Shown: positions 11,248 through 39,948 of the stretch, piece by piece
Layout of the letters: every line of letters starts with the position of its first letter
Position numbering within the stretch: the stretch's first letter is position 1
From: Thraustochytrium sp. TN22
Taxonomy: Eukaryota; Sar; Bigyra; Thraustochytrida; Thraustochytriidae
Direction of reading: 5' to 3'
Assembly (NCBI GenBank): GCA_013306675.1
Contig: JABLUY010000020.1
Span: 62,001-126,000, forward strand
DNA: 64,000 nucleotides
Program-made: the position numbers and the translations under genes
Notes under the pieces: model-generated
What the model was told of the DNA's origin: nothing
Databases searched by the model: none
The model's input: only the letters and a program-made list of their open reading frames with translations

Positions 11248-14232
11248 ATGTCTGACAAGGAGCTCCATGACAGCGCGGAGGACCAAACAAGCAGCCCCTC
11301 GACCGAGAGAATCGTGGAGGAGGGCAAGAGCGAGGGCCAGGAGGCCAAGGACGAGGGCCAGGAGGCCAAGAACGAGGGCCAGGAGGCCAAGAACGAGTTT
11401 CAAGAGGGCAAGAGCCAGGACCACGAGGCGTACGATGGCGCGGATGACCTCGGTCGGAGTGTGAGTGCGCGCACAAATACCCATCGAGACAGCGCGGTAG
11501 AGAGCGCGCTGCAAGCTGCCGCGAGCATGAGCTCCGTTACGTCCTCTGCAAGACATCGAATGGCCTTTGCGCGAGCAACAGCACCGCCGTCCGAAGAGAC
11601 GGCCGAACAGGCCGCTGCGGCTGCATCTGAGCAGGCGACGACCCTACCGTCGCAGGACACGGCCCCGCCATCGCAAGTCAGGGCCCCGCGGTCGCCGGCC
11701 TCCGCCGCCTTGGAGGCGTCGCCATCGCAAGCGTCCGCTCTGCGTATGTCAGCGTCGTTCGCGGCTGCTCATGGGTCCATCCTTCAGCGATTCTCGTCTC
11801 GCGCCTCTCGTGCGTCCCGAGGTTCTCGAGCTTCCGCGTCTCACTCTTTCAAGGAGAAGGAGGGCGCGTCGAACGCCGCATTGCTGCAATCCTTGGCGTC
11901 GCGTGCTGATGCCGGCGAGGCGCCGTCACAAGACGCGCCGGCGGCTGGTTCGCCTGAAGCTGCCGCCCTGCAGTCAATGCAGGCCGCGATGCGGGCCTCC
12001 GCCGAGGGCAGCGCGCCGCAGAACATGAGCATGAAGATCAAAAACGGAGCCATGTCAAGCTTCGCGGCTCGCAACAGGTCGGGCATGGCCTTGGGACTGT
12101 CCCAGAACCAGTCCATCAAGCTGCGCACGCGCAACGCGCTGGGTTCCTCCGCAGCGCCTGACGCGGGGATCCCCTCACTATTACAATCTGCGGCGTCCTT
12201 TGTAATGCAGCCTGGCGCGGGCGCGCACAAGTCGTTCAAGCGCGGGCGCGAGAAGCAGGGTTCGATGGAGATTCTCGCCAGCGAGCTTACTGCCGATGAG
12301 GCCCCGACGGCGTCCTTCAACGCGAAGCGAGGAGCCACCTCCGTCATGCAGGACCTGATGCAGGATGTGGAAATCGCCGATTCGGAGAGTCAGGCCCGGG
12401 CTGAGCGCATTCGCAGCTTGAGCTTTCGCTCAGGCGGGCCGCCGTCCGGCGCTGGCGCAGGACAGGCCGAACCGCAGAGCTCCGATGGTGCCGGGGCCAG
12501 CCCCGGACCCGGGACTGGCCCCGGGCCCGGCGCCGGAGTGGCGAACATGGACGGTCTGTCGAAGAAAGCAAGCTTCCTGAGTACCCGGCACACGTCCTTC
12601 ATCGGGCAGTCGTCCAAGGCCAAGTACGAGGAAATCATGCGCAAGCGGTCCGAGAAGTCCGCCGCGAGCCGCTCGAGCAGGCGCGACCACGATGGGCGCA
12701 GAGCCATCTTCTTCGAGCCGCCCGTCACCTTCGCGCAGGACGCAACGCACCTGCGGCGGCGCGCAACGCAGTCCGGATCCCCTCTGCACCAAGACGCGGC
12801 AGGAGGATTCGGCGGGCCCGGGCCGGGCGTGCGCTTCGCGTCAACGCTGGAGCGGCTCGCCGAGGTGAATCGGCTGGCCGCGCTGCAGCGGCGGTCGTCG
12901 CGCACGAACACGTCCTCAGCGCCGACAAGCTTTTACGATGTGGTGGACACCGAGGCAGAGCCACAGGCGAGCAACACGGACTTCTCGGAACGCCTGGCCG
13001 GGCGTGTCACGGAGTCGTCGTGGTTCCAGAATCTGATCTTGGCTTGCATCGTCTTCAACACTATCCTGTCCATGCTGTATACGGACCCGGACATTGAGAA
13101 GAACTACGGCCGGCTCATCGACCAGGCGGACGGCATTTTTCTGGCCATCTACCTGATGGAGCTCTGGCTGAAAATCATCTACCAAAAGGCAAGCTTCTGG
13201 CGCGACAACTGGAACAACTTCGACTTCTCGCTCATCCTCGTGTCGGTGCTGAGCACCTTTGTGCGCGACATTGGCTCGCGGTCCACGGTGGACGGCCGCG
13301 TGTTGCGCTTTCTGCGCGTGTTGCGCGCCTTTCGCACGCTGCGCATTCTGGGCGCCTTGCGCAAGCTGCAGGTCGTGGTGAACACCTTTCTCAAGAGTCT
13401 CATGGAGCTCACCAACATCGTCGTGATGATCTTGCTGCTCATCTTCATGTTCGCCATCATGGGCCTGCAGCTCTTCCAGGAGTACTCGCCCGAGTACTTT
13501 GGCACGCTCACGCAGTCCGCCATGACGCTCTTCGTGTGCATCACCCAAGAGGGCTGGGTCGACATCACGGACGAGGTTTTCGAGTCGGTGGCCAACAGCG
13601 ACGGCGGCGTCGACGTCTTCATGTCCTTCATCATGCACGCCTTCTTCATCATCTACGTCACCATTGGCGCCTGGATCATGATCAACCTCATCAGCGGCAT
13701 CACCGTCACCAACTGGCAATTCTACGTCGACGAGATGAAGGCCATGGAGCGCGCCAAGTTCCACGAAATCGAAATGCCGTCTCTTCGCGACGACCAAGTT
13801 GCCAAGGATACGCGCACGGTCTCCCAGGACACGGTCTCCAACGAGGTTTGGGCCAAGCAGGTGCCGCTCGTGTCGGCCACGAGCGTGGGTCGCGTCTCCA
13901 TCAAGAAGCTCGAGAACTACATGCTCGTGCTTGACGCCCTCGAGCGCAACATGCAGGAATACAAGGACCTCAAGACGGCCCTGCGCGGCCACCTGAGCGT
14001 CATCCAGAGCACCAATTCGATGCTCGAGGTCCCTGTGCTGGAGACCGAGCGCGTCGACTCACGCTTCGACGGCGACGTCCTAAGCATACAGCTCATGCAC
14101 GAGGAGGCCTCCAGAGGTTCCAACGGCTTGCACTCCGGTCACGGTGGCGGCGGAGGCATTCTCCGGCGCAACTCTGCTGTGCAGCGCATCCGGCGCCGCG
14201 GCAGCTCCATGATTCGCAACATTATTAGTTGA
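11248..14232 (+). CDS. CATSPER4: CATSPER4-like single-domain voltage-gated cation channel
   Basis: This is a 994-residue protein. Residues 1-590 are disordered, Ser/Ala-rich, with three EGQEAKNE repeats near residues 30-50. One six-helix channel domain follows: S1 near 593-612, S4 near 684-702 with arginines at every third position (RVLRFLRVLRAFRTLR), a pore segment reading TLFVCITQEGWVDI near 760-773, and S6 ending INLISGITVTN. The pore sequence and the C-terminal helix (ENYMLVLDALERNMQEYKDL) match what I recall of mammalian CATSPER4 better than other CatSper subunits. CatSper channels are four-subunit calcium channels of the flagellar membrane. The long N-terminal tail is much larger than in mammals. 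The start is set at the ATG before MSDKELHDSAED; the frame is open upstream but repetitive. An EFCAB9-like gene lies 25 kb away. A generic single-domain protist channel is the alternative. Confidence 0.75.
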   Translation: MSDKELHDSAEDQTSSPSTERIVEEGKSEGQEAKDEGQEAKNEGQEAKNEFQEGKSQDHEAYDGADDLGRSVSARTNTHRDSAVESALQAAASMSSVTSSARHRMAFARATAPPSEETAEQAAAAASEQATTLPSQDTAPPSQVRAPRSPASAALEASPSQASALRMSASFAAAHGSILQRFSSRASRASRGSRASASHSFKEKEGASNAALLQSLASRADAGEAPSQDAPAAGSPEAAALQSMQAAMRASAEGSAPQNMSMKIKNGAMSSFAARNRSGMALGLSQNQSIKLRTRNALGSSAAPDAGIPSLLQSAASFVMQPGAGAHKSFKRGREKQGSMEILASELTADEAPTASFNAKRGATSVMQDLMQDVEIADSESQARAERIRSLSFRSGGPPSGAGAGQAEPQSSDGAGASPGPGTGPGPGAGVANMDGLSKKASFLSTRHTSFIGQSSKAKYEEIMRKRSEKSAASRSSRRDHDGRRAIFFEPPVTFAQDATHLRRRATQSGSPLHQDAAGGFGGPGPGVRFASTLERLAEVNRLAALQRRSSRTNTSSAPTSFYDVVDTEAEPQASNTDFSERLAGRVTESSWFQNLILACIVFNTILSMLYTDPDIEKNYGRLIDQADGIFLAIYLMELWLKIIYQKASFWRDNWNNFDFSLILVSVLSTFVRDIGSRSTVDGRVLRFLRVLRAFRTLRILGALRKLQVVVNTFLKSLMELTNIVVMILLLIFMFAIMGLQLFQEYSPEYFGTLTQSAMTLFVCITQEGWVDITDEVFESVANSDGGVDVFMSFIMHAFFIIYVTIGAWIMINLISGITVTNWQFYVDEMKAMERAKFHEIEMPSLRDDQVAKDTRTVSQDTVSNEVWAKQVPLVSATSVGRVSIKKLENYMLVLDALERNMQEYKDLKTALRGHLSVIQSTNSMLEVPVLETERVDSRFDGDVLSIQLMHEEASRGSNGLHSGHGGGGGILRRNSAVQRIRRRGSSMIRNIIS

Positions 14233-14486
14233 ACGGAGCTCGTAGAGCCTAAGTGGCGGGCGAGTCCCCAAAATCCCGACCATGCGCATGCACACTCTGG
14301 ATAATGTGAGAGGCTCAGAGGTGGGTGAGGCCAAGAAAGACGCAAATGCACACTGGATGAACTTTGGCTTTGGGGATGGTCGCGATCAAATGACTACCCG
14401 GGTGGTGGTACTAAAAATCTGGTAAGGGACGGGCTTGCAGAGGAGACTCCCATGGCTCTGGACAGTCATCACGGAAGGTGGCGCGC

Positions 14487-14804
14487 CTAGCGCTCCAGGT
14501 TCGCGACGCGCTTGCGCAACGCCTTCTGGCCGTCCAGCGTATCGCGGCGCAGCTCCGCGAGCGACTGCTCCACGTTCTTGGTGCAGGCGTCGATGTCCTG
14601 GCCCAGCTGGTAGTAGCCCAGGCCCAGGCTGCCGGCCACGCCGAAGAGGAACCACGTGAACCGCGTGCTCATGCTCGGGCCTCGCCGCTTCGGCGCCGGC
14701 GCCGCCACCACCGGCGGCGGCGTCGTGGCCGGCGCCGTCGTCGAAAGCGGCCGCGCGCCGCGCTGCGCCGCCTGCGCCGCACGAGCCGCTGCCTGCCGCA
14801 TCAT
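14487..14804 (-). CDS. Small single-pass membrane protein, probably mitochondrial
   Basis: This 105-residue protein starts MMRQAAARAAQAAQRGARPL, an arginine and alanine-rich amphipathic stretch typical of mitochondrial presequences. A Pro/Ala linker is followed by one membrane segment (RFTWFLFGVAGSLGLGYYQL, about residues 48-67). A short charged helix ends the protein (CTKNVEQSLAELRRDTLDGQ, to the stop), which could be a coiled coil. I do not recognise a named family; the layout resembles small inner-membrane assembly factors. The frame is open further upstream to 14927, but those residues are Arg/Gly composition and I take the ATG at 14804. It is tail-to-tail with the channel gene, 254 bp away. 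Confidence 0.6.
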   Translation of the reverse strand: MMRQAAARAAQAAQRGARPLSTTAPATTPPPVVAAPAPKRRGPSMSTRFTWFLFGVAGSLGLGYYQLGQDIDACTKNVEQSLAELRRDTLDGQKALRKRVANLER

Positions 14805-15214
14805 CCTGAGCGCGCGCTCCGCTCGCCCGTCCTGCCGCCGCCGCCGCTCCGCCCGCCCGCGCCCTCCGCTGCCGCCGCCGCCGTCCCCTCGCGCGCGCAC
14901 GAATCTATCGTTCGCCTCGCTCGGCAATCTTGATTGATTGCAGCCGACTTGCAGCCTCCGGCGAAGCCCTGCAGCGCCGCGCCAGCGCGCGCTGCTCAGT
15001 CGCTCGCGCGCCAGCGCGCGCTGCCCAGTCGCTCGACTGCCCGCCGCGCTCGGTCGCGGGCGAGCGAGCGCTCCGTCCCGAGCACGACGGCCGTCCTCGT
15101 CGTCGTCGTCGGGTCGAATTCAAAAATCAAATCGAGGCGAGAGCGCGGGCGGGCGGGGGGGCGAGCGAGCGAGCGAGCGAGCTGGCGGGCGTGCGGGCGG
15201 CGGCGGCGGCGGCA

Positions 15215-15764
15215 ATGGCGGCAATGGCGGCGTTCACGTATGCGCCGAGCGGGGCCGCGGAGGTCGCGGCGTACGACGCGCTCTGGCGCGCGGCGACTGC
15301 AGAGGCGGAGACGCCCGGCCGCCTCGGCGGCCGCGCGGCCGTGCAGTTCTTCACGACGAGCGGCGTGCCGCGCGACGTGCTGCGCGACGTTTGGGACAAG
15401 GCTGACCAGGGGCAGCGCCACTACCTGGAGAAGCCGCAGTTCGACGCCGCCGTCAGACTCATCGCCGTTGCGGCCGCTGGCGGCAACATCGCGCAGGTCG
15501 GCACGTGTCCGGGCAGACAGCTACAGCTTCCGGCGCCATGGGAGGCGCAGGTGCAAGCCACGCTTGCGCCGCGTGTACAGCCACGATTTGCCAAGCAGGA
15601 CCGCGTCGCGCATACGCGCACCTCGGACGGCCTCGTGCGCACGGGCATCGTTGTAGGCGTTCACACCGACGACGCGGTCAACGGCATCTATTACACGGTG
15701 CGCCTTGACGAAGGCAGTGAACTGCAGGCTGCGGAACACAAGCTTCGTCACGAACATGAGCTCC

Positions 15765-15826
<62 letters not shown>

Positions 15827-17908
15827 TTGCCGCCACTGGAGCAAATGCCGCAGCAGGCGCCGCAGTACCAACAGCAGCAACAGCAGCAACAGCGGCAACA
15901 ACAGCACCAACAGCCTGCGGACTGGTCTCTCGACGCGACACTCCTAGAAAGGTACCGACACATCTATCGCCAAGCAATCGCAAGCGAACCGCACGGCCGT
16001 CTTGACATGCATGCCACGCATCGCTTCTTCCAGCAGTCCAAGCTGGACGACGCCACAATCGCGCATATCCTCCGCCTTTGTGGATTTGGACCGCAGCACG
16101 TGCTCACCGAGGCGCAGTTTTGCGTCGCCTTCCACCTTGCAATCGGGGTGAGCAAGAAGAGCCAACCCTTGCCCTCCTCGCTGCCGCCCCAGCTCGTCCA
16201 TCTCCTTGCAGGTAAGTGCGCTTCCGAGGTCTGAGCGAGCGTACCGTGGATGTGAACATGGCACCTGACTAACACGCAAGATTCCACCCAGCTCCCGGCG
16301 CTGGATGGCGATAGGCCCGCGCCGCCCCTCACGCCGTCCCTCTCCTGGGAAGAAGACCTTGCGCCGGACAGTGACGGCTCGCCAGATCATGACGACGGCA
16401 GGACAGGCGAAGTGAAAGACATGCTCGGTCCTGCGCCTCTTCATGCCCAGGACTTGGACGAACTCGAAAACGAGCAGGACGACGGAGACGCGGCGTTTGA
16501 GGAAATTCCTGCGTCCATGCCCGTCAAGATCGCGCCCACGGCGAACTCGAAGGGACCGGTTCACAAGGCGGATACTCCGCAAGTCGCCAGTGCAGCAGAA
16601 GCAGAAGAATCATCCGGAGATGCGGACGCGGACGCGGACAAGCCAAAAGCGGTCACGAAAAATGCTGAAGGAAGCGAGGACTTTGCTTGGAGCGAGCCCC
16701 TTGCGAGCGAGTCGTCAACCAGCGCGCAGGACGAGTTTGACTGGGGCGAGCCAGCTGCGGCCGAGGCTCCTCGCATGGACCAAGCTCATGCTCAGGAGAG
16801 CGGGCTGGACTGGCATGAGCCTAGTTCGGATCCCGTGGAGACACCACTGCAAGAGCCGAATCATGTCACAACATCGCAGGTGGCACAGCCCAACGAGCCG
16901 GCGCCATTGAGTGGTCTCCCGGATGTGCTCGCGCCTGCACCAGCCAAGGCGAGTGCTGAGGAACTCGACTGGGGCGATTTCTCGGAAGGTCCCACGCCGC
17001 CTGCTTCTCATCCGAGCACGACGCCACAACAAGATATCACCTCGTCGGAGCGAAGCGATGACCTGCCACAGATGCTCGAGCTTGTCCGCGAAGAGCTCTT
17101 TGCCGACCTATGCGCCTACCTGGCCAAGCAGGGGGGGCTTCCGACGCAGGTCGAAGCGAATCCAGAGGCGTTGGAGCGGCTGGCAATCCAGCACCCGGGC
17201 TTGGGACACATGTACCGGGGTGAGCTAGGCGCAGCGAAAAAGGTCATCACGCAGGCGCTCCGCGAGGGCGAGCGCAAGCGCGCCTCCCGCGCTGCGGAAG
17301 AAGCGCGCGAGAAGCAGCAACGCATGCTGCGGCACGCGCGACTCGCCGGACTTGTTGCACGAGGTGGAAGCTCGGTCCTCACACAGTGGGCAGACATATT
17401 GGACGCCGTCGCGGAGGAGACGCGGCGCGCGTGTGCACTGCTCGAGGCCCTTCACGAATTGACGCAAGGTTCCGACGCCGTCGCGGCGCAGAACGCGCTG
17501 GCATCCGACGACGTTGCGATCTATGTCGCGGACGTGTCTTCCATGAACCATGTGGCTCTGCGCATTGCCGCGGCCGCACGCGCGGGCCTCGTGGAGGAGG
17601 ACCTTGTCTCATCACTAGCGCCTTGGCGCGAGGCTCGACGCGTGTTTGCTACACACCATGACCGCATCGGCCCGATAGCTGGACCCAGCTTCTCCATGGA
17701 GGAGCAGGACGAGGCAGGCGTGCATCTAGATGCGCTTGTCGCGCAGCTTCTGGCCCACGAGGATTCCCAGGAGCGGTGCGGATTGACACTCGCGCCTTTG
17801 GACCCGGAGCAGGCGCACTCCTTCAGCGGCGCACGCTTCCAGCGCGACGCCCTCAACCTCTGGATCAACCGTGTGGACTCTGCGGCTCCAATGGTCTTTT
17901 GGTCATAA
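15215..17908 (+). CDS. SYNRG: Gamma-synergin-like EH-domain adaptor (AP-1 accessory protein)
   Basis: The gene has two exons, 15215-16211 and 16281-17908, giving 874 residues. The 69-bp intron has donor GTAAGT, branch CTGACTAAC and acceptor CAAG. EH domains appear near residues 8-75 and 245-330, the second ending in SLPPQLVHLLAD across the splice. Between them are a small barrel-like segment (about 130-180) and a polyglutamine tract of 19. The second half carries four acidic Trp motifs (FAWSEPL, FDWGEPA, LDWHEPS, LDWGDFS), the type that binds adaptor ear domains. A helical C-terminal region ends CGLTLAPLD...NLWINRV, which recalls the C-terminus of animal gamma-synergin (CGVCL...NLWINCVEP). 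Gamma-synergin works with AP-1 at the trans-Golgi and endosomes. Two EH domains instead of one, and loss of a C-terminal Cys pair, are differences. The symbol denotes likeness, not proven orthology. Confidence 0.7.
15770..15826 (+). repeat. CAG repeat encoding 19 glutamines
   Basis: Eighteen CAG codons and one CAA lie in frame within the synergin-like gene. A second, impure CAG/CAA-rich stretch follows at about 15865-15915. The near-purity of the tract suggests it is length-variable between strains. Confidence 0.95.
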
Positions 17909-32200: not shown

Positions 32201-34740
32201 CTTTGCAGCACTCGAGGCTGCATGTCGCTGACCTCACTAATGTCGGTGATCTGGCAGAGGTAGCGCAGGACAGGGCTGCTCGCGGTCTCCATGATCCAAA
32301 TCTCGAGCTCGCCATCCCGCAAGATCATCGGAGGCTGCTCGCTGTTCTCCTTCTTGTCAAGCCGGTGATAAGCCGACACGATCGGGTTGCCGAAGGTCGA
32401 TAAGGCGTCGTTCTGGCTCTTCGTCCCAGTCCCCGCGCCAGTGGCAAGCAGACGTCTGGAGTCTGTGCGAGTGCTGGCGCTGCCCTTCGACCCCTGACGG
32501 TTCATCCTTACGAAGCTTTCTCCAGCCTGGCCAGCTGTGTGGTTCGGGTCGGCGTCGTCGTCGCTTCCATCGTCGCTGGCCCAGTCGTCCTCACTCGCTC
32601 TGCTACCAAGGCTGGTCTCGTCCTGGTCGGGAATCTCTGCCGCCGCAATGGCATCGTCCTCGCTGAAGAAGAGGGCCGGAGGCGGCTCCCAGCCCTCGGC
32701 GTAGTTGATCGGGTCCCTCTCAAAGAGCCACGGGCACTGCTCTCCATTCATGTATGGCGCAGGCAGAAAGCCAGCTGGCACGCCAACACGCGATCGCAGG
32801 TAGCCCGGTGCATCGCTTCGCGCCTCGTTGGGGTCGGCCATGGAATCCGGCGCAAGGTCCGTCGCTTCGTCGTGGTCCAGCTCCGCCTCGGACCGCACCG
32901 GGAGGCTGGTGTTGCGCTCCGAGAGCACCTTGTAGCGGTTGCGCTTCTCGAGCTTGGCCGTAATAGAAGGCGATCGCGCTCGCGAGAGCACCTTGGGCTT
33001 GGGCGGCGGGTATGGGGACATGCCGAATTCCATAAAGCCTTGCAAGCCGGTCACCGTGCGCAACATGGTAGGTGTGAACATGGGCACCACCTCGCGGCCC
33101 GAGCGGCACAGCATAGGCGCCACAGTTGTGCAGCCCTCTGGAACATCGGCGAGCGGCGGGACGCGAACTGCAATGCGGACGGTGGCATGAGCCGTTCCGA
33201 CCGCGACGATCGTGATCTCACGGACGCCGCGAATCTGTTCCACAGCCTCCTCGTCCGCCACAAAGACGCGAGCACACGCCACCTCGGGCGAAACAGCTCC
33301 GGCGGGCTCCTCTTCGGCGCTGCTGTGCTCGGGCAGCACGGGCTCCCGTGCTGCAAGCTGAGCGGCCGTTCCCGGAAGATGCAAGACGGCACGCACGTTT
33401 TCGACGCGCAAGCGAACTTCGATCATGATGTCCGACAAACAGGCGTCGGCAGCGCTGCGCAGCGCAGCATAGCCGCGGAAGGGGACGAGCCTCTGCCCGA
33501 GCAGCATCGCGAACCCCCGTACGCACTCCACGCGAAGCTCCGCGGCCCTGTAGCGCACCTCGAGCTCGTCCATACGCGAGAACACGCCCGCCCAGGCACT
33601 GAGAAAGGCGAGTGTGGCCCTTTCCACATGGTGATTTCTGTACGCCTCCAACAGCCTTTGCATGAGAGGCACGAAGAGGGCGCAGAAGCGTAGTAAGCCC
33701 AAGTCGGTGTCGTTTGCGTCGCTTGAGGGGCCCTCCATGTCGAAGTCATCGAAGTCGTCGTCCAAAGCAGCCGCATCGTCCGTAAGGCTGACTTGGGAGA
33801 GCAAGAGCCGCGTCTCGCTCGCCAGCATGCGCAGCACGTGGGTGACGACGAGCGGCGAGAGACGCGCGCGGGCAGCGAGGAGCTCGTACGCAACAAAGAG
33901 CGTTCCCGCGCGACAGCGCTGGCGGCTGGCAGGCTGCTCAAAGCGGATAGAAATGTCCATGCACCGCGTGAGCACCGCCACCCAGCGTTGCTCAAGGGCG
34001 TCACCCTCGCAAAAGCTCCAGTGCCGCGGCAGCCGCGCGCTTTCCTCCGCGTGGGCATTGAAAGACGCAGCCACTTCGTGCAAGACGAATTGCCTAAGTT
34101 TCTCGCGCTGCGTCTGGCTCTCTCCGCCCAGCATCGAGCCGATGAGGCGCGCGCGGCTCGCGCGTCGGGTCTGCGCGAAATTGCGCGGCTCCGAGGCGGC
34201 CTCACCATGCGTTCGCAGGGTTGTCTCCATGGTCGACACGGCTAGCAGTCGGAGGTCCTCCACTTCGTCCCCCGCCGCAAGGTCCTGCAGCACGGTCACG
34301 AGGCGACCTGCGTCGCGGCCGGACAGCACGTCCCACATAGGGTGGCCCTGAAAGAGCGTTCCAATGCACAGCAGCGCCGCCTTGCGCACGACCGCCTCCG
34401 GGTGCTCCAGGCGCCGGATGATACTTCGGACGAGCCTCTCCACGGACTCCCAGTCCTGCGCTGCGAATCCTGCGTCAGCGCTCTGCTTCGCCTTGACCAT
34501 CATGGCGTACTCCTCTTCGTACGGCACGCTGCCCAGGGCCATCTCGCTTCGGACTTGCGGTCTCGCGCGCACCGCCGCCGCCGCCGCGCCGCGAAGCTGC
34601 GTCGCGGTCATCTCCACGGCATCCTCGCTCTCCCTGGCTAGTCTCCCGAGCGAGCTTCCGTCGTCCTTCTCCTCCTCGAGCGTGCCCGCGTCGTCGTCGT
34701 CGTCGCCGGCGCCACCGCGCGGCGCGTCGGTTGACGCCAT
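20242..34740 (-). CDS. Giant ASH/MSP-domain axonemal protein, HYDIN-like
   Basis: One uninterrupted frame of 14,499 bp encodes 4832 residues, near the size of animal HYDIN (about 5100) and trypanosome hydin. From about residue 1245 to the C-terminus it is a string of ASH/MSP-type immunoglobulin-like domains. They are recognisable by repeats of the form FGxxxxG...L.N.G...L (for example IFNFGALTRGARAKRTWRLC, DADFGVILRHARVQRGIQVR, LDFGRIATHIRQATYLHVAN) followed by LxPGE...V.F.P. HYDIN is a central-pair projection protein needed for flagellar beating. The N-terminal 400 residues look like HEAT-type helices and residues 600-900 are acidic and disordered, unlike the animal protein, and I see no P-loop of the adenylate-kinase-like domain of HYDIN. 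Other ASH proteins (CFAP47, CFAP65, CFAP74, DLEC1) are shorter. The first frame codon is GTG at 34782, so I start at the ATG at 34740. Confidence 0.75.
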   Translation of the reverse strand: MASTDAPRGGAGDDDDDAGTLEEEKDDGSSLGRLARESEDAVEMTATQLRGAAAAAVRARPQVRSEMALGSVPYEEEYAMMVKAKQSADAGFAAQDWESVERLVRSIIRRLEHPEAVVRKAALLCIGTLFQGHPMWDVLSGRDAGRLVTVLQDLAAGDEVEDLRLLAVSTMETTLRTHGEAASEPRNFAQTRRASRARLIGSMLGGESQTQREKLRQFVLHEVAASFNAHAEESARLPRHWSFCEGDALEQRWVAVLTRCMDISIRFEQPASRQRCRAGTLFVAYELLAARARLSPLVVTHVLRMLASETRLLLSQVSLTDDAAALDDDFDDFDMEGPSSDANDTDLGLLRFCALFVPLMQRLLEAYRNHHVERATLAFLSAWAGVFSRMDELEVRYRAAELRVECVRGFAMLLGQRLVPFRGYAALRSAADACLSDIMIEVRLRVENVRAVLHLPGTAAQLAAREPVLPEHSSAEEEPAGAVSPEVACARVFVADEEAVEQIRGVREITIVAVGTAHATVRIAVRVPPLADVPEGCTTVAPMLCRSGREVVPMFTPTMLRTVTGLQGFMEFGMSPYPPPKPKVLSRARSPSITAKLEKRNRYKVLSERNTSLPVRSEAELDHDEATDLAPDSMADPNEARSDAPGYLRSRVGVPAGFLPAPYMNGEQCPWLFERDPINYAEGWEPPPALFFSEDDAIAAAEIPDQDETSLGSRASEDDWASDDGSDDDADPNHTAGQAGESFVRMNRQGSKGSASTRTDSRRLLATGAGTGTKSQNDALSTFGNPIVSAYHRLDKKENSEQPPMILRDGELEIWIMETASSPVLRYLCQITDISEVSDMQPRVLQSDRSRGSLDSSDDGASVSSAGFDAEGMSWSDGGSSPRQDDGEGFAAAGDEGTKAAAAEDGAGLTASQAVPGRWKEEDRLEIRFRLASECTSPQGHAREVMCATVVVLEVLEDDQDLEMWGTDRDETGTSMARSNPIPAGLLDNDKVVYAPPCNLPPEPRRYARSTGAPLYGAAAPLRKRPVACTSTGRFAYATDERVSHAERPILYSNAGHPFFRSPESVLPAPSGYTSTGVPYYSVVSIVLHPFFPSFIRRRSMVRKACQLTRRAMLRASPAAFAKVRAAAAFLRSGAAPALEGANSSDFHVSISGGSGSAALEHGLSGLDSDDDEEDGDEEDFFLNEDGDDATNYFVAASNRLSKKRSAQTHGNSTLSLMASIYSGADGVEASSGSKLRLIFELAEISFEHSMTEEVRTVNVQTSVAPTKELSVFVMLDPPEVFVANPALLRFSPKETSQTISITFRPHKHPERSSHVHGEVRIQDFAGAVLGTTQLRAFRGPVVEISTIQRRSIWVPPGQQTMLVAAISNLCAEQVDLTLEMASSSCENEEAQDTFESFGATSTFAVDASALSVFKFQEALVPIHFAPGEVTGRHTAILRLKTSTFEEHQLEVNAFCGVPLHARLLTPRERLVYVADPTDQNQALPSVLKKRNSTLRAMRLDAQPTVSALLAAAPRDYSVNNLDGIASSASHSSEQGDGEATGGRAVTRQWSQVRKLMTGVGGFKTRRQFLYDRPGDRPEEQVPFVEELARKAVNKSFTRADLSGADDKLETHFPLDDADSDGSGIDLELEGEGEDQFDDEVETKALKVSYDWESVDMDGSGALAVDFGLIDPFQIVRRKFVLENISSEGILAGFQLEGCPWVKGFPSLIEVAAENIAVVDLEASGPGDWSGPFEVFLEVSAAILRTPLSIRLFGFVGRAVEFALEPRTFFGAHLPSAESLVLRAPLVNHSPYQVEVILLPLAEGFSASVGSDTRDAVTIEPLEVADVEIAFNPGQCRGVYRSLLGVRVLKPTPATYAAAGPAGLLELVAIVAAPQAHSVPIRYDLNRVAQLRAWLDDSRPGSFFGPAGGSLGFARRLGSVSRHATELCQLCDEPVEVSEGDSALFGTRILWTTAEDGGSSSTCDETGVLKLQTPSLSTVVSSLKGEGADDAALELASVDETAICTPGLSASLENLPRVDISEMAPCSAPCGFGFVALVHREGSDGPVTRLSSLVVQRHGPLRAEALPRAGKTAVVDFGACAAGVVRRRWLILRNWSAYAARYEVRMPLLEHDLGFEPFVLAESEARGRLRPFEARLLPVEFHPASQTKLRERAVITLEAARPARNAEDSEREVTEMEVTLVGHAFIEAIQGLPDPEEIFNFGALTRGARAKRTWRLCNKGTTPQDLSFSVAPPFSAVPASLTLEPGETKDVVLAFEPRASGSFLQELTCMANGKPLVFSLRGVAGEASVQLSAGLTGEVAFGPRPFATRTSTFITVINTGTLPLQLTRVNYSGPHELAWQARRFRLHFAGMVPSVSKARRPLSFVEKPHGWSRLRAERRQVLQRLRAKMPGRSKLRTGRFAPVQAMGSFMVRSKPSLHAVDHSMRGSRRQFSAIRAPSRANSSRKSLLASMKRTSHESQGSMLIITRSTKQPSGSLLGSSSSLLKPEKAKAVMDEHADAAVQRFLQGLGAGALVRLDMQTPLDTYTDVTLPELPPLKTGDCFIFRVDFVAEVGVPVSIPVSLHFAPWQVSDMAMDLGLGDIELEHVSGAISRTRLEGVAVRRLKVAPTSLTFKPTAAAEHYPPGVTPEGTPLNVTITNESLQPQGFRFVRCNSTSFEIPDGEVVVQPGAVVAVPIRFRPALAGTEYHAQLALEDIFGRREIKLAGTGAVAHVSASPAMVRLPAVKVGREVSLKLVLANTGKLKAEAQVSCSSPHFRLSQESFLLGASGGSEAVLVTCSLTAEAKQLLGDAETLNATILVRWQLVPGGSWTTTPVPVSAAVGRVVLTAADQDRDMGLLTLHCASEARFKLRNEGNVYCEFRIPEELTPPSFLSVSLTPESGTLEPGETADVLVRVVPHECDLVDFSIPLVSDGGRLDLRLRGRVVAPQVQIPEDRDADFGVILRHARVQRGIQVRNTGLTEVVIRAKLLLHNRKLDGHRKTVANKVLSMWSGPTSGATLTPAALTDKSTSDEAESGDHQPDREDSAMHVRGMEVVRNALQGRHTNSSDRNDDREEAPPDPDQPDFVRAQAFALGPVHVTLAPDEAATLVLEAYGDEDLEGLGEEAKTFLATWSLAVDQIPGKTWSGRLRAMVGTLAARVELPEGGALRPSSAAQQRRPQQEQQNSLVPNEAQSPLLSYFGVCIVGHEFVRKGACTLVNQGTVDVEFLVQPEQRDLNVSPDDVSFRVHPLAGRLAPGERMAVDVVFCARLEGFHQLLADVVFRPTGSASGAGSELREQIAFAATTGQPRLLCLASTLNFGRCQIDGDAVSASFELQSAGNCAVSWSARLAEGEGLFKLDVDRGEIPAKDDQLVTVTFRPTSDTLQDDEDLVDCRGVVLVEWAGQAPFEIILLGEGARGRLRWTLRGGPDEIDAGATGIAFGTRPIHLGCPTAWQHLELHNDGKLDLDLRVRTDLAAKIFAVCFDAEEVRRRDIELQMERRFAKAEESSALTGEALELSRAMANQALGRRSSSNAKDDDLSAALSMTASSKDPGCALQGRRKLRLQPGEHAHVHVGFAPSSEESFVGRLKVTLAGTAGSALEIPVTGAGGELALRVDSPPAQLRSIGVGFITTHTMTVLNDGALASPIELSLEPAQLSETVSFVILGTAAEAALPQYEIEARHEKAGHEARGDCRTVYTIEGHGTLRISIGFNPSTQGPLQGKVLVIPRHEGLETLELTTRTISTRSGVGGARSYGEVDVGPFGLALPLDMEAINNRLRLSRTSNFALGRVPPGQACSDVRRILNGTDLDIDFSARVSRPDQAWQVSPAKGRLPAGASVELCVQFLTDDEDVDNWHEVDIEVFNETTASCDVRLRGYASVGRPELATNLDGQGVLDFGSCQLNACVCVPIVLRNTGTGMLHVRPRIEYESRENHEQVLFLGWRRPKSTLRDRPVPARLELAVGDAGEAAEEAEEYAKGLGAMLSHEGCGHGEGIEQPLMKGFGVLAPGSVLELTLAFAPRFRGAVAARLHLDTNQTRGLGGGAREVELRAEGQAFDLQMDQLTSRVHFGPWLMGETPTFSLALRRRGEMDVPLKLLFDEPRWDSRWPPPFGCGGILRGDREGALGAAPREPTTHAMGHLALSQAELVAGDSEEAVVLRLAVPEAWLDGKGVPTKASAAKFRALILAQPPAPAPSTIPLFLLRPGNLPPFRIDVMYNLDLPRVRVELPDAVKTGEERDQVRIRDLSAPEGSGDQTAGLSEEDRALVVAHLVFGSVLTRQPVSRSFVLSTNSKLRIPFKAQIHVHKHPHSTENYNAHFSLTRKEGILEAGEPVAIKLRCNFPVPFDSAHNPVAVRISFLHGALPEAILPVRVKTMEHVFRAASLTPVRFPDAVFLGGTQEAGLRLENATEDPVEARISFSDAAFYTTLANPIKVSVSEPFWVPVLFKPRVEAVYEATMEIQVDKLVFVIQLSGSGVEARIKLKPAACVDFGFVGTRLSASEALVLRNTSALPMYVQLEAVGDNDGFQASTTQFALKGRASRSVDVRFSPVLEQTYEAALMVRAFDRDPNTQPPAPAPAPAAGQGKASECPAARRLLEESVRLVGMGGRVDLAFSPTLDFGRIATHIRQATYLHVANTGDVALDLKLVPRESDAGALKLAPPQLSLLPGQDATVNVLLTLREDGPHALWVDLVPSADALTTNPYGWKVRVDSVGDRIALSAELQRILDEERLPMLEHRSDDVEDEHLHRVVQPIVRLPSFGLDHLLAPVEPALESAAQSLHNALARPAPLVSETSAYNVAPKWHQNRAPLRMERNGRAHDAQLQPAAYTFTDAHWRALFFGDSSDSSGTGGGGSGGAA

Positions 34741-35121
34741 GCGCGCCGAGAGCGCCGCCTTCTCGCGGCCGTTCGCCGCCACCTGTGCGTGCGAGCGGGG
34801 CGCTGCCTGCGCGCGCGCGCCCGCCCGCGCGCCCGCGTGCCTGTCGCGTCGCCCGTGGACGCGCGACGCTGCGCGCGCGCGAGCGTCAACGGAGTTGGTC
34901 TTTGCCGGCGAACTTGAGCTCGTGGGACGCGCGTGCGTGGGACGCGCGTGTGGGCGCGGTACGGGCGTCGCGCAGAGCAGCCGGCCCGCGAGCTCCTCTT
35001 CGCGCCATGAGCGAGGCTCAAAATGGAACCGAGCGCTGCGTCAGCGAGCTTGCAACTCACACAGTCTCGGCGCTAGCTAGCTAGTGTCGTGAACAACTGC
35101 ACGCAAAGATTATAGTTAGGC
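34741..35121. promoter_or_regulatory. Upstream region of the HYDIN-like gene
   Basis: These 381 bp hold the promoter of the HYDIN-like gene and the 3' flank of the IQ/WW gene. A GCTAGCTAGCTAG run lies at 35072-35084, and the half nearer the start codon is CGCGCG-rich. No coding signal is seen. Confidence 0.4.
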
Positions 35122-38100
35122 CTACCATGGCTTCTTCCAGGTGGACTCGCCCGTGTGCTTGTGCACGTAGTAGCAGGCCTGGTCCGCGGCGGAAAAGTAC
35201 TCATCCCAGACCTCGGATGGGTGCTTGAGCGCGTCAGGTTTGTCCCAGACGATCTGCTCGGTTGTCTGCGTAAATGCGTTCCAGCAGTAGTAGTAGGGCT
35301 TCCCGGAGGCTTCGTCGAAGGCTTCATACCACTGTCGATGAGCGTCATCGTCCAGGGCGTCTTGTCGCTCCTCACTGGAGAGCGTGGCGGCGACATTTTG
35401 AGGGGTTCTGGCGCGCCCCTTGCGCTCGTGCTCGGGCTTCATCTCGTCTGGACGCTCGTACGTCCACTCGCCGGTGACGGAACTGACCCAATAGGCGGCG
35501 CTGCGCTCGAAGTCCCAGTACTCGGTATACTCGAAGCCGAGATCATCCAGCGGGCGCTCCCAGGTGGTCTCCTTGGTGTCACGGTTGACGTAGAATGGCC
35601 GGTTGAGCCCCGGGTGAATGAAGGTCTTCCAAAGCGGCTCGTCTGGGTCGGGCCCGAGAATCTCGGGCCGCTCCCAGGTGGACTCGGCCGTGGACGGGTT
35701 CTCGTAGTACTTGAGGCCGGAGTCTGCATCGACATGGACGACCCAATGGTCTCGCTCGCGCTCCTCTCTGGCGCGCGCGCGCTCCTGACGCAAAAAGCGA
35801 CGCATGTGCATCTCCTCGTGCAACATGGCCTGGCGCGCCGCGCGCTCCTGCTCGGCGTGATCGTAGGCCACCGGCTTGTCGAAGCTGGTCTCCAGGGTGA
35901 CCGTGTTGTAGTAGTACGTCTGCTCGTTCCACGTGTCCCAGTGACGAGTCCACTCGCACACGAGGCCCTCGTCGTCCGTGTCGCCGACGTCGTCGCCTGC
36001 TGCGTGAGCAGCGTTGGCGCGCCTGGCCTGCTGCACGAGGAAAGCCGCGTAGGCGCCTTGATTGCGTCGCCAGTTGCGTTGGATGCGTAGCGCCGCGCGC
36101 TTGCGCGCCATGTGCTCCCTGTAGGCGCGCTGCAGGCGACGAGCGCACGCGTGTTTGCCGCGGCGCTCGGCTTTGAAGACGGTCGCAAGGTGTTCCCTAC
36201 GTGCAGCGTGCACGCATCGCGCCAGGTGGCCTCGCACGATGGGCTGGATTCGGCGCGCGGCCTCGCGCTGCTTCGCGTAGACGGTCTTGGCCTGCATGCA
36301 GCGCACGAGGCTTTGAATGCGCGTCGCGGCGGCGTGCGCGGTTTGGACGCGACGCCGCACGATCCAGCCCCGGACCACGGCCTGCAGACGGGTTGCGGCG
36401 GCTCGCGAGGCAAGATAGCCTGCACGTTGCTCCCAGCCGCGCGCTTCGGCCTGGATTCGAACGGCCGCGCTGCGCTGCTGTATGAACTCGTGGCGCTCCG
36501 TCCAGCCGCGCTGCGCCGCCTGGATACGGACCGAGGCCGCGTGCTCGAGGGCGACCTTTTGGCGCGCCATGCGGCCACGCTGCAGCGCCTGCATACGCTG
36601 CAGTGCGCGACACTGCTCGTTGTAGGCCCTGCGGCACAGGTGCATCCGGACGACGGCCTGGACGACCACGGCCGCGGCGGTCTGGCGTCGCAGTTCGCGG
36701 CGTACGAGGTGGCCCCGGAAGAGCGCCTGGATGCGTCTCGCCCTGCCCCCGCGCTTCGCATGCAGCCGCCAGCGCATACCGGCCATCATGAGCGCGTGCT
36801 GGCGGCGCGCAAGCTTGTAGCGCTGTGCCTGCTCCAGAATGCGTGAGACACGCCGACGCCAGGCGCGCTGCACGCGCACAGCTGCTCCAATGTGCTCACG
36901 CGTCCAATGCACTTCGAAGATGACGCCCTCGCGGCTCGCGGCGTGCGCGGCTTCGTGATCGCGCAGAACAGAGTGGATCATGCGCATGCACGACCCGCAG
37001 AACTTGCCCAGACACGCGCGGCAGTAGATGGCGCAGACCTCATCCGCGCACTCGTCACAGAGGGGCATGCCATGCAGACGCTCGCGGCGCGCACGAAGCG
37101 CTGCCAACATGCAGCGCGCCGCGTGTGCTCGAGCGGCTCGCTGAATGACGGCAGCCGCGACGCGCTGCTCGCAGAACCTCCGCCGCCCGAGGATGCTGCG
37201 CCCCCAGGTCTGCACCGCCACTGCAGCGCGCTTGCGCGCTGCGTACCAGCGGTGCCAGCGCCACGCGCGCTGGAAGGCCCTCGCAGCCAGGTAGAGCCGT
37301 AGCCGCTTCGCGCGGTACGCCCGCTGGATGCGCCTGGCGCAGACCTCGCGCTGTCGATTGCGCACCGCAATCTTCACCGCAAAGGCCCGGTAGAAGCGCT
37401 GGATGATGCGCGCGCAGCGCTCGCGCTCGCGCCGGACGAGGAAGATGCCCAGCTGCGCGTGCTTGCAGCGCCAACGCGCTTGGATGCGAACGGCGCAGCG
37501 CTCCAGGAGCGCGCGCCGTAGGACCGCCGCCCGCCGCCGCGCCTGTCGTCCGCGAACCATGCTCTCTATGACCGTGGCGGCCGCGTTGCGCTGGAGAACC
37601 TGCACGCGCCGCAAGTGCACCCGCAGCTGGCCCTGATGGCCGCGCCACCGCGTTTGCACGCGAAGCGCAGCCAGCTCCCGCCGGCGCTCCTGCACGCGGC
37701 ACTTGGCGACTACGACGCGCATGAAGCGGGTGATGCGTCGCGCTGCGCGCTGCCGCCGCCGGACGCGCAGTACTTGGCGCGCCACGCGAATGCCAGCAAA
37801 AGTCCGCCATGCCTCCTGCACCACAACGGCGGCGTCCTCGCGGCGCAGACTGGCCTCGGCCGCAGCTCGAGCGCTGCGAGCGAGGATGCTGCGCGCAAAG
37901 CACTGCAGCGCCGTCGCGGCCCTCTCGACACCCCGCTCGGCGCGACGATCAGCGCAAAACGCCAGCGCTTTGCGTTGGCGGAAGCGGCACGCGATGCGCG
38001 TCTGGGCGGCCGCGCGCCTCCGGCGCACGCACCAAGCGCGCGCCACGTGGCCTCTGTACACGCGCTGGATCTGCAGGGCGCCAGCATATCGACCCCGAGT

Positions 38101-38847
38101 TGATGCCTCCACGGCGCGCTCGCGCAGGATAGCCAGGGCCTGGCCCGCCTGCTGCTTGAACCACGCGCGAGCGATCACCCGCGAGCGCGAGGCTAGAAAG
38201 CGTGCCCGATGGAATTCAACTCGCTGCTGCAGCCGGCTTTCGATGCGGTGCACCTCGTTGTTGCCCTCCAAGGCGGCCGGCTCCGCCGCGTAATAGGCCG
38301 GGTCATGACTCGCTTCACGAAACATCCCAAGACGCTGCACGATCTCGACCTTGATGCGTTTCTTCGCCTCTAGCTCGCTCAGAGACACGCCCTGCATGCC
38401 TGAGTTAAATACTCGCTGCATGGCCTTTTGCGGGTGCGTACCGGCGCGCAAGCGGCTCCAGACCTCCTCGCGCGCGTGTGCCACGCTCCACGTCGAGCCG
38501 TGCCACACGAGGCCGTGCGACGGCATGGTCAGGCGCACCACGCCGGCGCATAATGAGGCGGCAGCAGCGGCGCCAGCGGCGCTCTGCAGCGCAGCGACCT
38601 CCTCTTCGATCTCTTGGACGCGGCGGCCGTCCTCTGCGTCCATCCTGGCCCGCTCCCTGACGCGCATCTTGCGCACCATGGCTCGCTTCGGGAGCTGCGC
38701 TCGCGCCACAGCGTCGGCGTACTCCTGCACGCGCGACTTGTCTGCGTACAGCTTCGCGCGCGCGTCTGTCTCGCGCGGCCGCGGCCGCTTGCCGCGCCGC
38801 TGCCGCGGTGGCGCCTGCTTGCGCGCGGCATCCTCGCGCGCGCCCAT
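35122..38847 (-). CDS. IQ-motif, B-box and WW-domain scaffold protein
   Basis: This 1241-residue basic protein has three parts. Residues about 255-930 are a long array of IQ-like repeats (for example IQRVYRGHVAR, IQALFRGHLVRR, LQAVVRGWIVRR, IQPIVRGHLAR), the kind that binds calmodulin or myosin-type light chains along a helix. The array is interrupted at about 596-634 by a B-box-like zinc site with CDECADEVCAIYC, then CRACLGKFCGSC and HEAAH. Six WW-like domains fill about 960-1241, including YYENPSTAESTWERP, FYVNRDTKETTWERP and YYVHKHTGESTWKKPW; the last ends at the C-terminus. WW domains bind proline-rich ligands. IQ arrays occur in ASPM, myosins and many ciliary proteins. No P-loop motor or kinase domain is present. 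The role is unknown; the divergent promoter shared with an EFCAB9-like gene suggests, without proving, a flagellar or basal-body role. Confidence 0.75.
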   Translation of the reverse strand: MGAREDAARKQAPPRQRRGKRPRPRETDARAKLYADKSRVQEYADAVARAQLPKRAMVRKMRVRERARMDAEDGRRVQEIEEEVAALQSAAGAAAAASLCAGVVRLTMPSHGLVWHGSTWSVAHAREEVWSRLRAGTHPQKAMQRVFNSGMQGVSLSELEAKKRIKVEIVQRLGMFREASHDPAYYAAEPAALEGNNEVHRIESRLQQRVEFHRARFLASRSRVIARAWFKQQAGQALAILRERAVEASTRGRYAGALQIQRVYRGHVARAWCVRRRRAAAQTRIACRFRQRKALAFCADRRAERGVERAATALQCFARSILARSARAAAEASLRREDAAVVVQEAWRTFAGIRVARQVLRVRRRQRAARRITRFMRVVVAKCRVQERRRELAALRVQTRWRGHQGQLRVHLRRVQVLQRNAAATVIESMVRGRQARRRAAVLRRALLERCAVRIQARWRCKHAQLGIFLVRRERERCARIIQRFYRAFAVKIAVRNRQREVCARRIQRAYRAKRLRLYLAARAFQRAWRWHRWYAARKRAAVAVQTWGRSILGRRRFCEQRVAAAVIQRAARAHAARCMLAALRARRERLHGMPLCDECADEVCAIYCRACLGKFCGSCMRMIHSVLRDHEAAHAASREGVIFEVHWTREHIGAAVRVQRAWRRRVSRILEQAQRYKLARRQHALMMAGMRWRLHAKRGGRARRIQALFRGHLVRRELRRQTAAAVVVQAVVRMHLCRRAYNEQCRALQRMQALQRGRMARQKVALEHAASVRIQAAQRGWTERHEFIQQRSAAVRIQAEARGWEQRAGYLASRAAATRLQAVVRGWIVRRRVQTAHAAATRIQSLVRCMQAKTVYAKQREAARRIQPIVRGHLARCVHAARREHLATVFKAERRGKHACARRLQRAYREHMARKRAALRIQRNWRRNQGAYAAFLVQQARRANAAHAAGDDVGDTDDEGLVCEWTRHWDTWNEQTYYYNTVTLETSFDKPVAYDHAEQERAARQAMLHEEMHMRRFLRQERARAREERERDHWVVHVDADSGLKYYENPSTAESTWERPEILGPDPDEPLWKTFIHPGLNRPFYVNRDTKETTWERPLDDLGFEYTEYWDFERSAAYWVSSVTGEWTYERPDEMKPEHERKGRARTPQNVAATLSSEERQDALDDDAHRQWYEAFDEASGKPYYYCWNAFTQTTEQIVWDKPDALKHPSEVWDEYFSAADQACYYVHKHTGESTWKKPW

Positions 38848-39287
38848 GGATGGCCCTCGCCTGCGCACGCGGGCTCGCCGCCGCGCAGACCTGCCGCGCC
38901 TCCGCGCGCGCGCGTAGCTCTCGCCCCAGCGGCCTCGAGCGAGGCCAGGGCAGCCAGAGAACGTGGGCACGTGCGTGCAGCACGCATTTTCTCTCGGCCC
39001 ACAAGGCTGCAGAGAACCTGATAGGGAGTGACTGTGGAGGATGTGCGCGACTGCGCAACGCAAATTACTCTAACGTAACGGAAACACTGGGCCTCGCCAT
39101 CATCCGAGTCCGAGGCCGAGTCTGGGTCCTGACGCCGGTGACGGCAGCCGGGACTCGGAAGCGCCCAGCGACCCAGGGCGCCGCCGCGGCGAGCTCTCTG
39201 CGCGGCAGAGCGGAGGCGGCCAACCCCAAGGAGCGGGGCTGGCTGGCTTGCTCGCCACCGTCGCGGCTTTTTGCGCGGTGGGCAACG
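38848..39287. promoter_or_regulatory. Divergent promoter region between the IQ/WW and EFCAB9-like genes
   Basis: A 440-bp region lies between two head-to-head start codons (38847 minus and 39288 plus). It has a less GC-rich centre at about 39055-39095 containing CTCTAACGTAACGG. Close spacing makes shared regulation plausible. No TATA element is evident. Confidence 0.5.
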
Positions 39288-39948
39288 ATGTTCGTCCGAA
39301 GCGACCTACTACTGACGCTGCATCTGGACCCGCGCCAGCTGCTGCTCACGGCGCGCGGCATGCAGGTCGTCTCGGAGTACTTCAAGCTGCTGGACGTGAC
39401 GGGCATGGTGCGTCTCGCGCGCGTGCGCCGCGCGCTCGCTCGCGCCGTAACGCTAGCCGACAGGGAAGTGGCGTTGACTGACACAGAGCGTGAGAGGGGC
39501 ACAGGGCGAGCTGGACGACCTAGCCTTCACCACCTTCTTACAGTCCGCGACGGACTTGAACGAGAAGGAGGCGTACAAGGTCTTTGACATCTTCGACGTG
39601 GACGGCAGCGGCACGATTGGTTTTGACGAGTTCTACCTTATTGTGTGCATCCTCATCGCCATCAAGGACAACCAACAGAAGCAGTTTCTCTGGAACCACT
39701 CGCGCACGTGTTTCGAGCTCATTGACACGGACGGAAGCAACTCCGTGTCACGGTCGGAATTCGAGACCTTTGCCTTCATGTTCAACATCAGCAAGCGCGC
39801 GTCCAAGGACATCTTCTCCGACTTTGACAAGGACCGAAGCGAGGAGCTCGACTATGAGGAATTCCGCATGTTCACCATGGCTAGTCTTGACAAGCAGTTC
39901 GAGATCGACCAGCGCGTCCACGGCAGTAACGACGTGGGTCGAGGCTGA
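39288..39948 (+). CDS. EFCAB9: EFCAB9-like EF-hand calcium sensor
   Basis: The gene has two exons, 39288-39407 and 39505-39948, giving 187 residues; the human protein is 197. The 97-bp intron has donor GTGCGT, branch-like TTGACTGAC and acceptor ACAG, and it joins VSEYFKLLDVTGM to GELDDLAFTTFL in phase 0. This matches EFCAB9 across its length: an N-terminal SEYFKLLDV segment, TDLNEKEAYKVFDIFD, DEFYLIVCILIA, and an ending DFDKDRSEELDYEEFRMFTM. EFCAB9 in mammals is the pH-tuned calcium sensor attached to the CatSper channel in the sperm flagellum. Three EF-hand loops here are canonical (DVDGSGTIGFDE, DTDGSNSVSRSE, DKDRSEELDYEE). The CATSPER4-like gene in the same window supports the assignment. 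A single-exon reading starting at 39490 would use GTG and lose the conserved N-terminus. Confidence 0.85.

Follow-up and report, generated by a model that had tools for sequence, protein, structure and literature searches.

Predicted CATSPER4 pore subunit and EFCAB9 calcium sensor of a CatSper complex in a thraustochytrid-like protist

The stretch of DNA analysed here (64,000 nucleotides, hereafter the window) very probably encodes, to judge from sequence comparison, two proteins of the same CatSper complex, namely CATSPER4, a subunit of the pore, and EFCAB9, a cytosolic EF-hand subunit. They belong to a thraustochytrid-like protist that would also possess CATSPER1-3, CATSPERβ, CATSPERγ and a δ/ε-type subunit. 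The origin of CatSper in early eukaryotes was published between 2014 and 2017 (the 2014 report is given in sections of PMC5362262), and EFCAB9 appears in the CatSper coevolution networks of 1,256 eukaryotes (part of PMC10055175) and of 1,952 eukaryotes (PMC12638846, section 8). The first-pass annotation's suggestion that the regulated channel is ancient is for this reason right as to the age of CatSper, but not new. The same sections of PMC5362262 name the Aurantiochytrium limacinum genome among those searched. In the literature collection searched, nothing was found on CatSper in thraustochytrids by that name, on CatSper in Cyanophora, or on calcium channels of thraustochytrid zoospores. Cai et al. 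are said to have described in 2014 that A. limacinum, itself a thraustochytrid, has CATSPER1-4 and auxiliary subunits, as here. What looks new is that the sensor and the voltage-sensing parts seem less worn than in mammals.

Table 1. Features of the window discussed in the text
Feature	Position	Strand	Remarks
CATSPER4 orthologue (predicted)	11248..14232	+	ATG proposed in the first-pass annotation; start probable
Six-helix channel domain of CATSPER4	13018..13716	+	S4 with Arg at every third residue, six in all
CATSPER4 C-terminal tail	13720..14229	+	of four CATSPER tails compared, only that of CATSPER4 matches, in a helix near 13861-13989
HYDIN/CFAP65-like protein, 4846 aa	20242..34782	-	HYDIN/CFAP65/Cep192/ASH-type Ig-like matches; bystander so far as examined
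IQ/WW protein	35122..39063	-	IQ motifs: two Pfam stretches, more by eye; WW: three Pfam stretches
EFCAB9 exon 1 (inferred)	39288..39407	+	joined to exon 2 in the 187-residue product
Intron (inferred), GT..AG	39408..39504	+	one of ten in-frame solutions listed
EFCAB9 exon 2	39505..39948	+	EF-hand loops near 39595-39630, 39724-39759 and 39826-39861, all three canonical

The channel gene lies within a 1073-residue open frame (11011-14232, plus strand) whose Ion_trans domain scores 138.8 bits over residues 670-902. Its best single-domain chain in the PDB is CATSPER4 (7eeb_D, from 7EEB, which we take to be mouse; 107.5 bits over residues 671-993), followed by a NaChBac chimera (96.7 bits) and others, and by CATSPER1 (81.8 bits), among the 60 of 151 matches listed. 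Four-repeat CaV/NaV chains exceed CATSPER4 in total score, with single repeats reaching at most 72.0 bits in the three chains scored per repeat. The selectivity filter reads TQEGW, compared with TQDGW in the mammalian reference, so that E replaces D in the T-x-D-x-W motif given in part of PMC8004680. The C-terminal tail resembles that of CATSPER4 with a z of 12.7, against -1.0 to 1.6 for the other three CATSPER tails; searched alone against the PDB, it again has CATSPER4 as its top match, but with an E of only 0.062. The channel is thus assigned as a CATSPER4 orthologue, in keeping with the first-pass annotation, which had proposed both a CATSPER4-like channel and matching C-terminal and EF-hand features.

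CATSPER1-3 are also encoded in this genome, on other contigs. Each of the four pore proteins has a different CATSPER as its best match among the single-domain chains listed (107.5, 218.9, 120.0 and 110.6 bits), the margin of candidate C332 over a bacterial-type channel being small (120.0 versus 110.5 bits); for the CATSPER1-3 candidates this forward ranking is against single-domain chains, without per-repeat CaV/NaV scores. The reverse search, covering the open frames of loci with 45 of the genome's 90 Ion_trans matches, is one-to-one, with CATSPER1 finding C332, CATSPER2 finding C222, CATSPER3 finding C126 and CATSPER4 finding the window (127.5, 184.4, 97.7 and 109.1 bits respectively, with runners-up at 75.7, 70.4, 75.5 and 57.7). 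The tails agree with these pairs: that of C222 matches CATSPER2 with a z of 16.7 (other tails at most 3.8), that of C332 matches CATSPER1 with 6.6 (other tails at most 0.2), and at the C126 locus the CATSPER3 tail gives a score of 96 with an open frame adjoining the channel, compared with 32 for the next frame. The references form one mammalian set, in which we take the CATSPER3 sequence and the CATSPER2 and CATSPER3 tails used to be the mammalian ones. Channel-domain trees support the CATSPER1, CATSPER2 and CATSPER3 pairs, and neither support nor reject the pairing of the window channel with CATSPER4 (AU p 0.514), undecided both in a first tree holding the distant outlier C353 and in a second without it. 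An acidic filter residue is present in all four proteins (E in CATSPER4, D in CATSPER1-3), and their S4 charge runs count 6, 5, 5 and 6 in CATSPER1-4. The genome is thus predicted to encode four distinct pore subunits, in one-to-one correspondence with mammalian CATSPER1-4.

Among the auxiliary subunits, CATSPERβ is recognised by a CATSPERB_C match in a profile search of the genome (1.4e-37), the δ/ε type by CATSPERD-E_C (3.0e-34, plus a partial second locus at 6.0e-6), and CATSPERγ by CATSPERG_C (7.2e-10 when the whole genome was scanned, 1.8e-14 for the open frame itself, whose Ig-like domain is barely above cut-off). The first δ/ε-type protein is closer to epsilon than to delta (94.1 versus 81.1). 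Models of the β-propellers of CATSPERδ and CATSPERγ match nowhere in the genome, nor do they in the control genomes, a negative that does not establish that the domains are missing. All the pore, β and γ subunits for which the first-pass annotation proposed a genome-wide search are therefore found, and neither of the outcomes it named as fatal to its reading, a channel placed outside CatSper or a genome lacking every other subunit, was observed, since the trees do not reject the CATSPER4 placement and other subunits are encoded. CATSPER1-3, β, γ and the one clear and one partial δ/ε-type loci lie on seven other contigs; the G+C content of the CatSper loci is 62-69%, and that of the window 67%. 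The genome also encodes a fused DHFR-TS, a marker that argues against animals and fungi, and a PUFA synthase, a thraustochytrid hallmark (2539.7 bits in a 3044-residue frame, with a divergent 2083-residue frame adjoining). A Labyrinthulomycete 18S primer has no exact match in the assembly, which would speak against a thraustochytrid if the rDNA is included there, though not decisively.

The second gene of interest had been annotated as an EFCAB9-like sensor, an assignment that holds. The open frame at 39490-39948 scores 116.9 bits against EFCAB9 and 37.4 against the best non-EFCAB9 protein. The intron was chosen from the listed solutions because it gave the best alignment by eye, and the 187-residue product of this predicted junction aligns with EFCAB9 across residues 8-175 at 136.1 bits, while the closest protein other than EFCAB9 scores 40.8. 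The gene is single-copy: the next place in the genome, on C385, is a 31% match and belongs to a protein with LRR and EF-hand domains. By one simple rule, three of the four EF loops examined are canonical here, compared with none of four in the mammalian PDB reference, which nonetheless stands above one EF-hand cut-off. The gene at 39288-39948 is accordingly a predicted EFCAB9.

Could the two proteins be something else? The window channel might be another one-domain eukaryotic channel, such as an EukCat, that merely resembles CATSPER4: its tree position is undecided, EukCats occur in stramenopiles (according to part of PMC10120453), and the comparison set was one without an EukCat reference. 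The reciprocal best match, some 50 bits ahead of the runner-up within the loci compared, the CATSPER4-type tail combined with a TQxGW filter, and the three sister subunits and auxiliary proteins in the same genome make this improbable. As for the EF-hand protein, its three canonical loops are calmodulin-like and would suit a generic relative of calmodulin or centrin, an identity rejected as scarcely credible given the more than threefold higher EFCAB9 score along nearly the whole length. The CATSPER4 and EFCAB9 assignments are thus retained.

The location of these genes is another matter. The first-pass annotation placed a HYDIN-like flagellar gene between channel and sensor, which is confirmed, and suggested that flagellar genes may be clustered here, which is not. 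CATSPER4, the HYDIN-like gene and EFCAB9 do place three flagellar-type genes within 29 kb, and in simulation at least one CatSper pair falls within 25 kb by chance with a frequency of 0.017, 0.041 or 0.077 for 6, 9 or 12 genes; a genuine cluster kept by co-expression is nevertheless unlikely. Only 1 of 36 CatSper pairs is linked, on which ground a CatSper gene cluster is rejected, and this pair was picked before the chance calculation, so that the event at about 4% weighs little. Within the 64-kb window, the other family-matched genes (OGT-like, EH-domain, Ulp1-like, cold-shock and IQ/WW) belong to no flagellar family, and several open frames matched no family of any kind. The proximity of CATSPER4 and EFCAB9 is most likely due to chance. 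The IQ/WW gene, which is divergent from EFCAB9 in head-to-head arrangement and has its first in-frame ATG at 38847, may encode a candidate EFCAB9 partner.

Compared with mammalian CatSper (PDB 7EEB, 9UBW), counterparts exist here for CATSPER1-4, β, γ, the δ/ε type and EFCAB9, and the acidic filter and subunit-specific tails are common to both. The differences lie in the CATSPER4 filter described above, in that of CATSPER1 (S here, T in mammals), and in the S4 charges in register of CATSPER3 and CATSPER4, 5 and 6 here versus 2 and 2 in the mammalian reference. The N-terminus of mammalian CATSPER1 is His-rich, whereas here one His occurs in the 128 open-frame residues preceding the channel, with further exons possible upstream. 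Of 12 Na_H_Exchanger matches, none shares a gene with an Ion_trans match, as an SLC9C1-type Na+/H+ exchanger fused to a voltage sensor would, though a separate exon could escape this search. The voltage-gated proton channel HVCN1 has a weak candidate, an open frame on C393 that best matches Hv1 by sequence alone (PDB 5OQK and 3WKV; 32.5 and 31.3 bits, 5.3e-7 and 1.2e-6, next 20.9), with a high bias term. The pH half of the regulation "by calcium and pH" claimed for the complex is thus not supported here.

How would such a channel work? Together, the four pore proteins would make up a Ca2+-selective heterotetramer that sits in the membrane of the zoospore flagellum and opens on depolarisation, perhaps aided by raised internal pH. 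EFCAB9, beneath the pore, would act as a calmodulin-like Ca2+ feedback sensor, and Ca2+ entry would alter the flagellar beat. CATSPERζ is called mammal-only in part of PMC5362262, and in part of PMC12638846 non-mammalian CATSPERζ is found by HMM. A tentative and rather doubtful extension is that this is an ancestral-type CatSper, with four full voltage sensors, three Ca2+ loops of calmodulin grade in EFCAB9 and perhaps no CATSPERζ. It would have steep voltage gating and strong Ca2+ feedback; in mammals, where the channel depends little on voltage and the EF hands are weaker and pH-tuned, these properties would then have been lost later, and the IQ-rich neighbour could replace CATSPERζ as the partner of EFCAB9. 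The age and spread of CatSper are known. For the origin of its regulators, a protist that has most of the complex, intact-looking EFCAB9 loops and fully charged CATSPER3 and CATSPER4 S4 helices may offer a view of the channel before its mammalian specialisation; in this organism it would serve the swimming of zoospores rather than of sperm.

CATSPER4 and EFCAB9 are confirmed to lie in one window, as the first-pass annotation had proposed from a channel-like and a sensor-like gene 25 kb apart. Among the best 60 of 151 PDB matches, the single-domain chain closest to the window channel is CATSPER4 of the CatSper complex structure 7eeb (107.5 bits), which we take to be from mouse, and the match extends beyond the channel domain up to aa 993. 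A NaChBac chimera is the next single-domain chain (96.7 bits), and CATSPER1 stands at 81.8. CaV and NaV chains outscore CATSPER4 in total because the bits of their repeats add up; taken singly, these repeats reach at most 72.0 bits in the three chains with alignments given. Conversely, the CATSPER4 reference finds the window frame at 109.1 bits and its next match at 57.7, within loci that cover 45 of the genome's 90 Ion_trans matches (genome size 37,891,866 bases, in 453 contigs). For the sensor, the second exon alone scores 116.9 bits against EFCAB9 and 37.4 against the best other protein, values which become 136.1 and 40.8 with the inferred exon 1. The gene is single copy as far as the search shows: of the ten matches, the strongest one outside its own two exons shows 31% identity.

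Coordinates of the genes discussed (window positions unless a locus or contig is named; the window is C122:62001-126000)
Feature	Position	Strand	Remarks
CATSPER4-like channel	11011-14232	plus	open frame, 1073 aa; Ion_trans domain at aa 670-902
EFCAB9	39288-39948		two exons, exon 1 inferred; match to EFCAB9
OGT-like protein	2953-8067		1704 aa; TPR and family-41 glycosyltransferase
HVCN1-like proton channel candidate	L033:3346-4521 (C393)	minus	best match Hv1, 5.3e-7, weak
PUFA synthase	L049 (G000:C124:26703-41142)		3044-aa frame, 2539.7 bits; divergent 2083-aa frame adjoining
Exchanger with voltage sensor	L024:1645-3930 (C343)		one 762-aa frame
Phosphodiesterase with voltage-sensor-like domain	L031:3622-7500 (C31)		single frame
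LRR and EF-hand frame beside channel frame	L050 (C385:7000-12000)		

Elsewhere in the genome, CATSPER1, CATSPER2 and CATSPER3 (contigs C332, C222 and C126), CATSPERβ (C439) and CATSPERγ (C254) are present, whereas HVCN1, named with them in the first pass, is represented by a weak candidate only. With CaV and NaV compared by chain total rather than by repeat, the one-domain channel at C332 pairs with CATSPER1 (120.0 bits, the top single-domain chain among the matches listed, a bacterial-type channel following at 110.5), that at C222 with CATSPER2 (218.9 bits, top among all chains listed), and that at C126 with CATSPER3 (110.6 bits, against 59.1 for the best non-CATSPER single-domain chain). Reverse searches of the loci covering 45 of the 90 Ion_trans matches return the same channels, at 127.5 bits for CATSPER1 (next 75.7), 184.4 for CATSPER2 (next 70.4) and 97.7 for CATSPER3 (next 75.5). 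The CATSPER3 reference is what we take to be the human sequence; those of CATSPER1, 2 and 4 are retrieved sequences.

Among the single-domain chains and loci compared, the window channel and CATSPER4 are reciprocal best matches, but the tree pairs only the other three subunits, with bootstrap/SH-aLRT values of 100/99 for CATSPER1, 100/97 for CATSPER2 and 97/90 for CATSPER3. In this second tree the CATSPER4 pair gains no support, yet constraining its two members to group raises the likelihood by 0.63 and is not rejected (AU p 0.514); the first tree agrees on this pair. For subunit pairing, the tails beyond S6, mostly outside the tree alignment, are more telling than the tree. The window tail scores z 12.7 against that of CATSPER4 and -1.0 to 1.6 against the other three; searched alone against the whole PDB, it has CATSPER4 as its top, weak match (E 0.062). 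The C222 tail reaches z 16.7 with CATSPER2 and at most 3.8 with the others, the C332 tail z 6.6 with CATSPER1 (score 59, one shuffle reaching 56), and the CATSPER3 tail is matched with a score of 96 by an ORF adjoining the channel at C126, the next ORF at that locus scoring 32. The CATSPER2 and CATSPER3 tails used for comparison are presumed sequences.

Among auxiliary subunits, a profile search of the genome finds CATSPERB_C at C439 (1.4e-37), a second CATSPERB domain there falling below its cut-off, and CATSPERG_C with an Ig-like domain (barely above cut-off) at C254. The CATSPERD-E_C model hits C129 with 3.0e-34, and a stretch of just 52 positions hits C443 with 6.0e-6. The C129 protein is closer to epsilon (94.1) than to delta (81.1), which fits the later origin described for delta (PMC5362262). 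Propeller models of delta and gamma match nothing in the genome, and likewise nothing in the prokaryotic controls.

A HYDIN/CFAP65-like gene of 4846 aa lies between CATSPER4 and EFCAB9, and an OGT-like gene is also found in the window. The proposal of a flagellar gene cluster fares poorly: the nine CatSper loci occupy eight contigs, of which only the one with CATSPER4 and EFCAB9 is shared. In simulations with contigs of random, rather than real, sizes, nine genes yield one or more pairs closer than 25 kb with a probability of 0.041, compared with 0.017 for six genes and 0.077 for twelve. This evidence of linkage is weak, since the pair was noticed before it was tested. The gene divergent from EFCAB9 carries IQ motifs (two Pfam stretches, more by eye) and three stretches of WW domains; because in mammals the sensor binds CATSPERζ at an IQ-like motif (PMC8147001), the product of this neighbouring gene is a candidate partner, no more.

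CatSper is described as a low voltage-dependent channel (PMC5558725). In S4, counted in stretches hand-picked from the alignment, K/R recur every third residue in runs of at most 6, 5, 5 and 6 in CATSPER1-4 here versus 7, 4, 2 and 2 in the references. By one simple rule, three of the four EF loops are canonical in EFCAB9 here and none of four in reference EFCAB9, the N-terminal loop being degenerate in both. The EF-hand_1 model gives 54.4 bits over three stretches here versus 20.1 (cut-off 25.4) for reference residues 9-176, but the EF-hand_7 pair model, with a threshold of 30, passes both here (59.2 bits) and in the reference (41.4 bits). Since EF-hand_7 passes and a review describes Ca2+ binding to the EF-hands of mammalian EFCAB9 as conserved (PMC8004680), the reference loops, though weaker by sequence, need not be dead. 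This anatomy fits a predicted channel regulated by voltage and Ca2+. The pH arm of regulation, also suggested in the first pass, is not supported: a single His occurs in the 128 residues preceding the channel in the CATSPER1 open frame, and none of the genome's 12 Na_H_Exchanger matches shares a gene with an Ion_trans match.

Other frames with voltage-sensor or channel matches also occur in the genome. In the C343 frame, the two halves of a Na+/Ca2+ exchanger (Na_Ca_ex 175 bits, two stretches) flank a voltage-sensor domain (Ion_trans positions 1-109, 65 bits) whose S4 has six Arg at every third residue, with no pore match. As a 2023 Nature paper describes SLC9C1 as the sole transporter known to be controlled by voltage-sensing domains (PMC10620092), this exchanger could be a second kind. 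The C31 frame joins a cyclic-nucleotide phosphodiesterase (240 bits) to a voltage-sensor-like domain (Ion_trans 26 bits, cut-off 25) with few S4 charges by eye, and at C385 some 360 bp separate the start of an LRR and EF-hand frame from a divergent frame with Ion_trans_2 and Ion_trans matches.

As to lineage, DHFR and thymidylate synthase occupy a single frame, a fusion which argues against animals and fungi, and a PUFA synthase of the sort found here is typical of thraustochytrids. A presumed labyrinthulomycete 18S primer has no exact match in the genome, and placement among thraustochytrids is likely rather than certain. CatSper was reportedly found in Aurantiochytrium limacinum in a 2014 paper. 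That genome is among those searched in PMC5362262; stramenopiles and glaucophytes are listed among CatSper holders (2023 review, PMC10120453), and multiple homologues are described in Phytophthora infestans and Saprolegnia diclina (2016 review, PMC4820453). In P. parasitica, a 2025 study of the zoospore membrane proteome found no resemblance to CatSper2 among the calcium channels annotated (PMC12223298), and a 2021 review still terms CatSper post-LECA (PMC7935092). EFCAB9 is described as broadly conserved in animals (PMC8147001) and belongs to coevolution networks of 1,256 (PMC10055175) and 1,952 (PMC12638846) eukaryotic species. Our literature search found no paper naming CatSper together with thraustochytrids. 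The ancient origin suggested for the channel is correct, though already published, and what this probable thraustochytrid holds is a known kind of system with informative differences from that of mammals.
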